DNA from: Castor canadensis
Taxonomy: Eukaryota; Chordata; Mammalia; Rodentia; Castoridae
DNA length: 64,000 bases
NCBI RefSeq assembly: GCF_047511655.1
Contig: NC_133399.1
Location: 8,745,333 to 8,809,332, forward strand
Reading direction: 5' to 3'
In this document: piece after piece, positions 2,223 to 48,323 of the stretch
Layout: every line of letters begins with the position of its first letter
Position numbering within the stretch: position 1 is the first letter of the stretch
The notes under the pieces: model-generated
Database searches by the model: none
Told to the model about the DNA's origin: nothing
Seen by the model: only the letters and a program-made list of their open reading frames with translations
Translations under genes and position numbers: made by a program

Positions 2223-2758
2223 CTTCTCTGGTATAACAAATTGTTGCAGCCTATAGTTAACCTGTTTGCTGTAGGACATTAGACAACTCTCACATCCATC
2301 CTCTGCCCCTCCTCCCCTAGCTTTTCGAGCCTCGAGTGCCCCCTGCTCTGCTCCCTGCTTCGCTCCCGCCTTTTATTAGCTTCATGGTGAGGGAACATGC
2401 AGTACCCTGGTCTGATAGCACTCCAGGGCACTGAGTGTGAGACAGTACTGTCATCAGAGCCCTACTCTATGCCAGGCCCTTCCCCTCTTCACCTCTCACC
2501 CTTCCCCATCCCTGTCTGGATTTGTTTTCCACGAACTGTGCTTTGGTCCTTTGCTCGAGGACACAGGAGTCATGTGACAGCTTCCAGCAGCATCTGCTTG
2601 GCTGTGCTGGTTCACTTCCTGCGTCTCACAACCTGGGACCAAAGGGTGGCTGAGCCTGGAGTTGGGAGGAAGGGGGCAGCGCAGGGTGCACGGCCGTAGA
2701 CCTCAGCCATCTAGCTGGGAGAGCTCGCCACCTCACTCCGTGTCTCTTCTCTGTCCAG

Positions 2759-2812
2759 CAAATGGAAAGGATCCTAAAGAAAGCATCCAAGACCCACAAG
2801 CAGAGAGTGGAG
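2759..2812 (+). CDS. FAM32A: FAM32A penultimate coding exon
   Basis: Eighteen complete codons (phase 0 at both ends), flanked by a pyrimidine-rich tract with CAG acceptor and a GTGAGT donor. Confidence 0.95.
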
Positions 2813-3085
2813 GTGAGTGGTGGCCCGGGAGGAGCCACAGGCTCATGGAGGACATGGCTTCTGCTGTGGAGTGCTGCTGGAGTGTCAGTTTACCCAACAG
2901 GAGTGCGCCTCCTCAGCCCGGGCCGCAGGGTCTCTGTGGGGAGGGGCTGCGCGGGGCTACGCATCCCTGGCACCCTGCCCGGGCTTCACTGACTGGCTTT
3001 CCCCTTTGCTTCCCAGGACTTCAACAGACACCTGGACACGCTCACAGAACATTATGACATCCCCAAAGTCAGCTGGACCAAGTAG
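2759..3085 (+). CDS. FAM32A: FAM32A, last two coding exons (3' part of gene)
   Basis: Two exons, 2759-2812 and 3017-3085, join in frame to give 40 codons ending in TAG. Exon 2759-2812 starts after a CAG acceptor and reads QMERILKKASKTHKQRVE before a GTGAGT donor. Exon 3017-3085 reads DFNRHLDTLTEHYDIPKV then SWTK and stop. This is the C-terminal third of FAM32A (OTAG-12), a basic, lysine-rich nuclear protein of about 112 residues. From family knowledge it is reported in the catalytic human spliceosome near the 5' splice site, and was earlier linked to apoptosis. The N-terminal exons, with the start codon and the lysine-rich stretch, must lie left of the window; I found no match in bases 1-2758. 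The reading frame is intact. AP1M1 starts on the same strand about 2.8 kb downstream. Confidence 0.95.
3017..3085 (+). CDS. FAM32A: FAM32A terminal coding exon
   Basis: Twenty-two codons plus the TAG stop at 3083-3085, following a TTCCCAG acceptor. It encodes the conserved C-terminus, which ends in Lys after SWT. Confidence 0.95.
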   Translation, partial: DFNRHLDTLTEHYDIPKVSWTK

Positions 3086-4855: not shown

Positions 4856-5640
4856 ACACCATTGCCTCTTTCTAAACATCCTGATTTCTTCCTCAGCCGA
4901 ATTTAGTCACCATCCAATCTTTCTAATCAGATTCCTCCTAGAGTTTATTCGCCAGGGAACTGGTTTTCAAAGCACTTCTGGCTGCTTGTTCTATACTTTG
5001 CACAAGAATGCTTCCAACGCAGGATTCAAATATTCCAGCTTTTTTTTGGATGTTCTTGCACTTGTACCACATCCGAAGCAAAGGATGTATGATCACAGAG
5101 TTGCAAAAAGCATCTTTCCATCTTCCAGATAGGAAGATAAAAGACTCGTGAGACGCAGGCAGCCTGAGCACAAGCCTGCGACTGCGGGTTGGGTCCCCGC
5201 GCGCTGCGATGGTTCACTGGGACAGAATGCAGGTGGCTGAAAGCCCGAGTGCCCACAGCAGATTTTAAAACTGCATTGCTGGGGATGGAACCCTGGGCCG
5301 CCCACATGCGAGGCACCAGCCCCGGGCGTGGTTTTACGAGCGTATTCCAGGCAATAAACAGGCAGCGCGCGTTTACTGATAAAAGCTGACACTGACAGGT
5401 GACAGGCAATGAGGATGCGGCTCGATTGACATTCAGATGCTGACTGCTTTCATGTCATCCGGCCTAGCACCCTCGCCGACTGTAAGCTGCAGAGCTGGAC
5501 CTCGGGTCGGTTCCAGCACCAGGTTCCGTCACCCTCCTGGGCCCACAGCAGGGGCTTCCAGCAGCCCCGGCTTCCTCCCGCCGAGGCAGCCAGAGGGAGC
5601 CCCGATTTAATCAGCCCGCCACGCCACGCCCCCCGGAGTC
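4856..5640. other. Intergenic spacer between FAM32A and AP1M1
   Basis: Mostly unique sequence. No gene was recognised; GC content climbs towards the AP1M1 CpG island at its right end. Confidence 0.6.
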
Positions 5641-5892
5641 TTACTTCCGGGATGTTTGAGGCAAGGACCAGAAATAAGATCGCGAGGAATGCGCTGCGCC
5701 TGCGCACGCTCCGCTTCGCGCCTGCGCAGTCCTCGAAGCCCCGCCCCGGCCGGACATAACGGTCCGCGCGCGGCTTCCCCAGACCGGAAGTGGAAGTGAA
5801 GTGTCGCGGGGTGCGCCCGGCCTTGCTCAACGCCCGGCAGTCCGCGCCGCTGCCGCCTCCCTCGGCCGCTGCCGAGGCTTCCTGCAGCCGCC
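5641..5892 (+). promoter_or_regulatory. AP1M1: AP1M1 CpG-island promoter with ETS and NRF1 sites
   Basis: A TATA-less, CpG-dense segment directly upstream of the start codon. Two ETS/GABP cores are visible: ACTTCCGG at 5643-5650 and ACCGGAAGTG at 5783-5792. Between them are two full matches to the NRF1 consensus YGCGCMTGCGCR, at 5695-5706 and 5717-5728, 22 bp apart, about two helical turns. This ETS-plus-NRF1 makeup is typical of housekeeping promoters and fits a ubiquitous adaptor subunit. The transcription start is inferred to lie between about 5730 and 5870. Confidence 0.75.
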
Positions 5893-5934
5893 ATGTCTGC
5901 CAGCGCCGTCTACGTGCTGGACCTGAAGGGCAAG
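5893..5934 (+). CDS. AP1M1: AP1M1 coding exon 1 (residues 1-14)
   Basis: [14 protein letters not shown]. The ATG at 5893 follows GCCGCC, a strong Kozak context, and the exon ends at AAG/GTACTG in phase 0. Confidence 0.97.
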
Positions 5935-8900
5935 GTACTGAAGGTTCCCCACCCTCCCCGTTGCCAGGCAACCAGCGGGGCCCTCGCCCTGTGGGGGACC
6001 CACCCTGTTGCTAGGTAACCGGCCAATGGGCCCCACCCTGGCTTTAAACCGGGAGGCCCGATGTCCCTCACCTGAGGGACACACCCTGTTGCTAGGTAAC
6101 CGGGCGGTGGTCTTCACTCCGTGAGCCCCGCCCTGTCGCTAGGTAACGCGGTGGGCTGCGGCCGTTGCCAGGTTACCGGCGGCGTCGTTCTCCTGCCCCG
6201 CGCGCCTGGGTCCACCGTGGGGACCCGGAAGCCGCGTGGAGGGCGGGGTCCAGCCAGCCGAGGGTACCGCGCGACCCTTGACCAGAGGCGCCACTGGCGG
6301 GGACTGTGGCCCCTCGGCCAGTCCCGCCTCCCCGGAGCTCAGCAGCTCCTGCTTATCCAGCACTTTTAGCATTCGTGGTGACGTTGAGTTATCGGGGCTG
6401 GGGGAAGCCCGTGGTGGGAGCGCCACCTTACAGAGGGAGAAACTGAGGCACAGAGCGGTGAGGCAGGCTGTCCAAGGTCACAGCTGTCACCGAGGAGTAC
6501 CCAGCCTAGGAATCTCCAGTCCCTTGAGTTACTGTCTGCAGAGAGGCTGCTAGCAGGGTCCCCTGGAGTGGATGGTTAGCCGTCTCTGTCCTTAGGGAGT
6601 GCACAGTGGTTGAGGAGATGCACCCTCATCTGGAAAAGCATAAAGAAACGTTAAGTATGGTGGTGGGCAGTCAGCCTCGCTAGGGGTCCCCTGAAGGGAG
6701 AGTGACAAACCGTGCTGGGACACGGAGGAGGCGGACATGTGTAGGGTCCGGGCAGCGTCCCCAGAGGTATCTGAGAGAGAAGACTATTGTTGTGTGGTGC
6801 TGGAGATGAACCCATGACCTCATGTATGCCAGTAAGTGCTCGCCACAGAGCTGCGCCCCAGCCCGTGGCACAAAGGTGTAGGAGGTGACTGTCCTCTGGA
6901 ATGTGGAGGCATCAGGAGCAGATTCAGTGTTCATGAGTGACATGAGGGATCATCCTTCCTAGCTGAGGGGACCTGAGCTGCTCAGAAACGGAGCCGTGTC
7001 CCCCCCCAGCACCCTCGCCAGGTCTCTCGAGTGGGGGCCTGCCTTGGATGCCAGAGTCAGAGTCAACAACTACCAGTCCCGGTGCTGGTGCACCAGGGCA
7101 GGGTGGAGACAGTGTCCCCTCCACCTCATGGCACATGTTACGGTCCCTGCCCCGGCCACCATGTCCCTAGAGGTGCAGCAGGCTGTGTGTCTCAGCTCAT
7201 TCCTTCAGGAAACGAGGTGCCAGGCCTGTGCTAGCGCTGTGGAGAGAGGGCTAAGCTGTGTGCCATTCGGCAGGTGCCTTCCCCTCTCTGAGCCCCACTC
7301 TCTCTGCTGGGCTCGTGTGCGGGCATGTGAGCCAGGCCTGGTGCTGCCCATGGCTTGCGGTACACAGAGACTGCCAGAGCCGGGCCTGTGGCGAGGCCCC
7401 AGGTCACAACAGTTGCTCAGCCTTGCATTTGGCTGTGAGAAGGGGCTATTGCGAAAGGTTCCCTGGCAGAGTCTTGTGCCAGAGCTGGTTTCAGCAAGGT
7501 GACCAGGTGACAGTCAGGTGGACACATGGCATTCTGGTAGCACAGAGGGTGAGGTGCGAGCGGCCTGCGGGGCTGGAAGGCTGGAGATGGTAGGTAAGGC
7601 CTTGAACTAAACAGTAGGGCTTGCTGTTCTCAGGAGCGTCAGTCACAAAGGACAGAACAGATAAACATACTGCAGTTGATGGCATGGGTGGCATGGGCAG
7701 TGGGGGACGCAGGTCAGGGTGCGGGGGCTGGGATGTGGGCTCGGCCGGAGCAAGCAGGGAAGGCTTCCTGGAGGAGACGTGGTCCAAGCCAAGGCTTGAG
7801 AAAAGAGAAGGCCAGGCCAGGGTGTTCACACAAAGGACCTGAGGCAGGATCCCATGTGGGTGGCTCAGAGACTGCTCAGGCTCCAGCTGGCTGGGTGAGT
7901 GAGGCAGGGATGTGGACAGAGAGTGTTGGAGGGGCTGTGAGGAGCAGGTGAAGCAACTGATGTGACTGTGGAGATGGCCTTGGCTGAGGAAGCTAACACA
8001 GGTGACAGTGTTTGTAAGGAGAAACCGCATCAAGCATCTGTTGGGAACATTCACACTTCATGGGGACCCGGCAGGGGAAGGGCTGCCACCTCAGTGTCAC
8101 CTGCCCCCGTCTATCCTACTTTCTACTTTCGGCTCTCATCTGGAGCCCAGAACCCAGTTCCGAGATTGTCCTCACCCACTTAATCACGATTCCAGGTCCC
8201 TTGGTGCGTCCCCACTGGTACCTCAGCCATGCTGGTCCACTGTCCCCATCCCAGACTTCAGCTGTGCTGATTTTTGCCCTACCTGTCCCATCGGTCCTCG
8301 GTGGTTCAGGCCCTCAGGAGGTGCCCAGGTCCCCCTACAAATGCATCAGTGTGGGAAAGTGTATGCCTAGGTTACTGTTGTGTCCCCAGTGTACACAATG
8401 CCACACTGCAGGGCACAGGGTGCATGCTCACACTGTGAGTGACCACCTGGGCAGCCCTGCCACCCCTGTGCTGTCCTTGAGCTCTAGACCCTGGGCTCCT
8501 GTCATTGCCAGCAACAGCCACAGGAGCTGGATGCCTGGGACCCCAGGGGCAGAGGTGACCCCGAGGCAATCAGACGGGTGGGTGTCCTGCTCAGAGGCTG
8601 ACAGCTGCGCTTCTGCAGGCTTCAGGCAGGCAGTATCCCCCTGACCATTGCTGACATATGCCGAGGTGGTCATGCCTGCAGTCCCAGCACTCAGGAGGCT
8701 GAGAGGAGGATCGTGAGCTCCAGGCCAGCCTGGGCTACAGAGTGAGACCTTATCTACCTCATAGGGATGACAAGGAGGATGTGCGTGGGCACAAGGGAGT
8801 CCCTCTGCCAGAGCCAGGCCCAGTTCTCACAAGCCCACCCACTGGGTGCCAGGCCCCACAGAGCCTTCTGCGCCTCAGCTGCAGGATGGCCCAGGGTGCT

Positions 8901-37130: not shown

Positions 37131-37415
37131 CAGGGGCTGGTGGGGTGGCTCAGCAGTGAGAGCGTCTGCCTAGCGAGGGCAAGGCCCTGAGTTCAAATCC
37201 CAGCGCTGCCAAAAAAATCAAATTAAAGCCAGTGCGGTGGCTCACGCCTGTAATCCCAGCTACTCAGGAGGCAGACATCAGGAGGATCGCGGTTCGAAGC
37301 CAGGCCAGGGAAATCGTTCTCAAGCCCCTATCTCAAAAAACCCTTCACAAAAGAAGAGCTGGTGGAGTGCCTTGAGGTGAAGGCCCTGAGTTCAAACCCC
37401 AGCACCGCAAAAAAC
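37131..37415 (+). mobile_element. ID-like right half, then a full B1-dID-type SINE
   Basis: 37131-37215 reads GGGGCTGGTGGGGTGGCTCA to a poly-A. 37225-37415 begins AGCCAGTGCGGTGGCTCACG and keeps both halves, so it is a young copy. Confidence 0.92.

Positions 37416-46427: not shown

Positions 46428-48323
<1,896 letters not shown>

Follow-up and report, generated by a model that had tools for sequence, protein, structure and literature searches.

Five short inverted repeats resembling the X-boxes of RFX factors lie close together at the start of the first intron of AP1M1, and the question they raise is whether they form a regulatory cluster or a by-product of local duplication. Judging from the sequence, we give an about even chance to the array being a locally duplicated, promoter-proximal homotypic cluster of RFX-type sites. 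All positions below refer to the window, i.e. the whole 64-kb stretch of DNA analysed (G000:C14:8745333-8809332), which belongs to a genome of 2.81 Gb in 181 contigs.

Gene setting of the array

The exons of AP1M1 were located by tblastn with the AP1M1 protein and span 5893 to about 26368, with the coding part of exon 1 (14 residues) on the plus strand at 5893..5934 and the GT at 5935 as its probable donor. Pieces of FAM32A were found upstream (2756-3082) and pieces of KLF2 downstream (47446-48320); together with the exons themselves, they confirmed AP1M1 as the host gene, as named in the first-pass annotation.

A motif scan pointed to a probable core promoter, CpG-rich and on the plus strand, at 5644..5790, where GCGCCTGCGC occurs at 5696 and 5718, CTTCCGG at 5644 and CCGGAAG at 5784. 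We take the first of these to be NRF1-like and the other two to be ETS-like elements, and their combination upstream of the array appears to be as in a housekeeping CpG-island promoter. The surroundings of the array are CpG-rich (GC 0.70, CpG o/e 0.80), which speaks for regulatory sites of the RFX type. The sole CCAAT/ATTGG found by motif scan in 5500-6500 is a CCAAT box on the plus strand (6023..6027), 3 bp after copy 2 of the array. This box and the CpG-rich DNA that follows the presumed start could also belong to an alternative or antisense promoter in intron 1, driven by the array in place of the main start; we hold this to be quite improbable, as the motif scan of 5935-6500 returned neither TATAAA nor an NRF1-like element and a single ETS-like site, at 6225.

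It should be added that ARAGORN called a tRNA-Arg with anticodon GCG at 37138-37212 of the window. Such a tRNA is unusual in mammals, and the call is perhaps SINE-derived or false.

Structure of the five sites

Motif search identified five 13-base X-box-like sites, all on the plus strand: copy 1 (GTTGCCAGGCAAC) at 5960..5972, copies 2 and 3 (both GTTGCTAGGTAAC) at 6007..6019 and 6088..6100, copy 4 (GTCGCTAGGTAAC) at 6135..6147 and copy 5 (GTTGCCAGGTTAC) at 6164..6176. The core GTTGCYAGGYAAC is exact at 5960, 6007 and 6088 and carries one mismatch at 6135 and 6164. The positions that had been reported for the five sites were all reproduced, as were their start-to-start spacings of 47, 81, 47 and 29 and the start of the first site at the 26th base past the presumed donor of exon 1. 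Arithmetic on the coordinates revealed no helical phasing in these spacings, which counts against a working RFX cluster. All five copies align in one orientation, which for copy 1 is decided by the central base only.

The statement that the palindrome had been kept in every copy proved too strong, since only copy 1 forms a flawless inverted repeat and the motif is missing from a possible sixth unit, described below. As read from the sequence, the arms of copy 1 mirror each other perfectly around a central A, while two of the six arm positions are mismatched in copies 2, 3 and 5, and three of six in copy 4.

The published degenerate X-box, RYYNYY-N1-3-RRNRAC, combines degenerate arms with a spacer of 1-3 bases, as given in an excerpt of PMC2375033. 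Copies 1-4 fit it on both strands (4/5); copy 5 fails on both, which argues against an RFX cluster of five. The pattern GTNRCY-N0-3-RGYAAC is fitted by all five copies on at least one strand, copy 5 doing so on the minus strand. The earlier designation of the sites as RFX-type thus holds for the whole array under the latter pattern and for four of the five copies under the former.

The differences between the copies seem to sit at positions that an X-box tolerates, which favours RFX-type sites. When equal numbers of random changes were introduced into the commonest copy, the five matches were kept in 0.3% of the trials, or in 1.1% when transitions were favoured, and when they were introduced into copy 1, all five matched in 0.001% (0.02% with transition bias), in a test that leans upward, towards kept motifs, because the copies had been found by motif.

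Inverted repeats in a transcribed intron might alternatively work as RNA hairpins, in splicing or in RNA-protein binding. Sense copies 1-3 do pair along the whole 5-bp stem if G.U wobble is allowed, and in copies 2 and 3 the antisense stem has one break, which was counted on the same side. Copies 4 and 5, however, each break the sense stem, 5-bp stems with 3-nt loops would be weak, and 5/5 copies fit the DNA X-box pattern. With the stem broken in two of five copies, we consider a role as RNA hairpins very improbable, and DNA binding appears to be the better fit.

Clustering in the window and rarity across the genome

Searching both strands of the window for GTNRCY-N0-3-RGYAAC returned six sites, five of which make up the AP1M1 array. 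In 4000 dinucleotide shuffles of 5701-6500 the mean was 0.0275 sites and the maximum 2, against 5 observed, and a chance origin of the five-site cluster was therefore rejected. The excess of five sites over 0.0275 expected also speaks for a module of RFX-type sites. At up to two mismatches, the whole window contained 8 sites with 6.89 expected; 40 of 100 shuffles reached 8, so that the number is not significant; what is unusual is the clustering and the exactness of the sites. By the shuffles and by the genome-wide pair searches described below, the array is a short stretch with sites above chance, that is, a homotypic cluster.

Genome-wide, the exact core GTTGCYAGGYAAC occurs at 618 sites and the reversed pattern at 14, a difference from which no enrichment is claimed because a CpG within the reversed pattern makes its depletion expected. 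Same-strand pairs of the exact core with a gap of 8-38 were found in two places in 2.81 Gb, AP1M1 and locus L090 on contig C11, while about 0.002 such pairs would be expected if the 618 sites were spread randomly, which again supports an RFX cluster. Pairs of the looser GTYRCYNRGYAAC were present at six loci (L090, L112, AP1M1, L114, L115 and L116), AP1M1 being the sole one with two of them; the reversed control gave 5 matches, so that some of the single pairs may be due to chance. Pairs of GTTGCYWRGYRAC occurred at five loci with gaps of 8-38 and at two, AP1M1 and the L090 cluster, with gaps of 39-69, with 0 controls in either case.

A baseline was drawn from the first 100 of the 618 exact sites as listed by position, a non-random sample in which one repeat family accounts for at least 13 sites. 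Within 300 bp and at up to one mismatch, 92 of these were solitary, 7 had one extra site, 1 had two, and none reached a total of five. Only 2/100 were located in CpG-island-like DNA, the baseline being mostly GC-poor. The genome-wide counts back the earlier description of the X-box array as unusual: it is real and rare in its own genome.

A repeat family comprising L062, L063 and L069-L079 carries GTTGCTAGGCAAC with near-identical flanks and inflates the genome-wide X-box counts; 11 of its members are found on C3 at 0.6-4.8 Mb.

The 261-bp DNA of the array (5940-6200) matched only itself in the genome, in a search that skips very common words. The first-pass annotation had named membership in an annotated repeat family as one of the findings that would speak against it, and at the sensitivity of this search no match other than the array itself was returned. 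CCCTGTTGCYWGGYRAC occurs 21 times genome-wide, twice in AP1M1 and once at JOSD2 (L115). The X-box-bearing repeat family mentioned above (13/80 loci, by eye) shows that such repeats are present here, but its flanks are unlike those at AP1M1. The self match and the count of CCCTGTTGCYWGGYRAC make it extremely improbable that the array belongs to an interspersed repeat family.

Origin of the array

Copies 2 and 3 are carried by a 45-nt direct repeat on the plus strand at 5992..6117 (5992-6036 / 6073-6117; 82% identical), and, in agreement with the earlier remark that two copies share flanks, they have 11/12 bases in common to the left and 8/12 to the right. Across all copies, the 12-bp left flanks are alike beyond chance (value reached by 0.02% of random draws) and the 12-bp right flanks weakly alike (1.4%). 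Spacers 1-2 and 3-4, of 34 bp each, are 50% identical, a similarity matched by 2.0% of letter shuffles and by 0.8% of random local pairs.

Furthermore, local alignment with the copy 3 unit indicated a possible decayed sixth unit on the plus strand at 6034..6056 (CACCCTG...AACCGGGAGG), in the 81-bp interval between copies 2 and 3, from which the motif has been lost. An equally good alignment was obtained in 17/2000 shuffles, this being one of four stretches tested; two others gave nothing and the score of 6101-6134 was a trivial overlap with the copy 3 unit. The 45-nt repeat, the alike flanks and the possible damaged unit make local duplication the likely origin of the array, as had been proposed in terms of local amplification, and some copies may have lost the motif. 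A regular tandem repeat or minisatellite with a constant unit was rejected, as Tandem Repeats Finder, run on 5000-7500 at score 30, reported nothing at 5960-6176 and the spacing is irregular.

Boxes of CACCC at 5950, 6001, 6034 and 6082 and of CCGCCC at 6128, which we take to be SP/KLF-type, immediately precede copies 1-4 and the possible decayed unit on the plus strand (5950..6134). Each of copies 1-4 has CACCC/CGCCC in the 12 bp to its left, as against 0/100 genome sites, which speaks for an RFX-type cluster, the absence at the controls being partly a matter of base composition since these are mostly GC-poor.

The chief rival explanation starts from the same duplication and regards it as neutral or nearly so: a young irregular minisatellite that grew around one chance X-box and has no role in AP1M1. 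The 45-nt repeat with copies 2 and 3, the half-identical spacers and the possible decayed unit all agree with it, and for copies 2 and 3 a young duplication suffices because their left flanks resemble each other almost as closely as the cores do. Against it, inter-copy identity falls to 8-50% in the flanks beyond 12 bp and amounts to 77-100% in the cores, which were picked by likeness; the changes spare the fixed X-box positions, under the same bias of the motif search; and the array adjoins a CpG-island promoter. In our judgement, neutral duplication is a possible account of the array, though less likely than not.

Other X-box clusters in the genome

A cluster longer than that of AP1M1 was found upstream of the coding start of JOSD2 (L115:1179-1654, minus strand, G000:C16 at about 22.046 Mb). 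It comprises twelve X-box-like units in 476 bp when up to two mismatches are allowed (none in 3 units, one in 5 and two in 4), counted on the sense strand alone and without a shuffle control, so that the weaker units may be chance. Seven of its 11 spacings are 25-35 bp, many of them about 28 bp, and Tandem Repeats Finder scores part of the array with period 28. When a narrower pattern was used and one mismatch at most was allowed, nine sites on both strands were counted in the central 800 bp of L115. CCCT or CTCT immediately precedes 5/12 units. The exon downstream of the array matches Josephin-2 (6pgv, E 1.9e-23), and the array adjoins a GC-rich stretch that may contain exon 1, which would place it in the promoter or in intron 1. 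Being longer and more decayed, the JOSD2 array fits neutral duplication.

Locus L090 (G000:C11:27772611-27772717) holds three mismatch-free X-box sites within a stretch of 107 bp; two of the three are identical and lie at a distance of 23 bp. Its DNA is CpG-poor (GC 0.42, CpG o/e 0.08), so that clusters can form outside CpG islands, which counts against an RFX module at AP1M1 and in favour of neutral duplication. At L045:1001-1141 (G000:C1), X-box sites occur at offsets 0, 62 and 128, the second of them with one mismatch, and a half-site at 28 was seen by eye. They immediately precede an exon that encodes part of a CH domain of the EHBP1 type. The clusters at JOSD2, L045 and L090 point at X-box clusters having arisen more than once and not always at CpG islands. 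New findings beyond the AP1M1 array are the JOSD2 array, which is longer and shows more decay, and the small clusters at the EHBP1-type gene and in the CpG-poor DNA of L090.

Possible role of the array

If the five sites do form an RFX-type cluster, the following course of events could be envisaged. A short unit of about CACCCT-X-box-CGG would have multiplied by local duplication immediately 3' of the AP1M1 core promoter, and selection may have acted on the resulting array. RFX dimers of the RFX1/2/3 type would occupy several sites simultaneously, with SP/KLF factors on the adjacent CACCC/CGCCC boxes, and both would modulate transcription of AP1M1, as the presumed target gene, starting at the CpG-island promoter that lies some hundreds of bases upstream. 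The effect might, for example, be higher AP1M1 expression in secretory cells or in cells that bear cilia, where the AP-1 mu1 subunit has a part in polarised sorting and in sorting to cilia.

That RFX factors might control AP1M1 is plausible, and the literature makes it look sensible. In the worm, unc-101 is the AP1M1 orthologue and daf-19 the RFX factor, and UNC-101 is treated as part of the ciliary protein secretion pathway, according to excerpts of PMC10917524; two papers on UNC-101/AP-1 and cilia are cited, by title, in PMC5461114. On the opposite side, an upstream X-box alone did not predict RFX dependence in flies, as stated in an excerpt of PMC2375033, which counts against reading the array as an RFX module. 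Among the matches listed from the open-access literature, titles and abstract beginnings named neither AP1M1 as an RFX target nor an X-box array of this kind. By term search, AP1M1 was absent from the main texts of PMC5838959 and PMC5245798, and "ap1m" from that of PMC4498915.

As a broader and unlikely generalisation, GTTGCYAGGTRAC-type X-boxes might repeatedly expand into short arrays immediately inside or next to CpG-rich gene starts. Housekeeping genes of trafficking and proteostasis would in this way come to respond to the dose of RFX factors, X-box minisatellites acting as evolvable promoter-proximal enhancers; AP1M1, JOSD2 and perhaps the EHBP1-type gene would belong to this small class. 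Should RFX act at AP1M1, the AP-1 mu1 subunit would be linked to the principal transcription factors of ciliogenesis, and the natural series of one, two, three, five and perhaps twelve X-boxes in this genome would lend itself to tests of how output depends on site number. Should the array be neutral, it would serve as a warning that duplication alone can yield dense X-box clusters.

Comparison with known systems

The MHC class II S-X-Y module consists of X, X2 (CRE-like) and Y (CCAAT) elements in a fixed order and at set spacing. The AP1M1 array shares with it an X-box-like site adjoining a CCAAT box, and this part of the earlier comparison, the CCAAT beside copy 2, stands. The likeness to the X-Y layout does not: the gap at AP1M1 is 3 bp, the array is intragenic, CCAAT accompanies 1/5 copies, and the single TGACGT/ACGTCA in 5500-6500 is at 6379, with none between copy 2 and the CCAAT box to serve as X2/CRE. 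An X-X2-Y layout was rejected on these grounds.

The JOSD2 array resembles that of AP1M1 in having several sense-strand X-box-like units beside GC-rich DNA, and differs in its twelve units, their stronger decay and the presence of GTGAC besides GTAAC arms. RFX2 sites from ChIP are described in an excerpt of PMC4498915 as 14-nt repeats, mostly very near the TSS, whereas the AP1M1 sites are 13-nt and intronic, which counts against an RFX role.

Down-regulation of c-myc by RFX1 via an X box in intron 1 is the subject of a title cited in PMC8106159. The likeness to AP1M1 lies in the placement of an X box in the first intron, a precedent that favours an RFX-type cluster. The c-myc X box is reportedly a single site, whereas AP1M1 has five, and CACCC/CGCCC boxes accompany four of these.

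Inverted repeats of the EF-C/EP/MDBP class serve RFX1 and RFX3 as sites of transcriptional regulation, according to an excerpt of PMC5760533. The AP1M1 copies resemble X-boxes of this class as 13-nt inverted repeats with GTTGC and GYAAC arms and differ in that five of them are gathered within 217 bp of an intron. The array is a fresh instance of an already known type of element.
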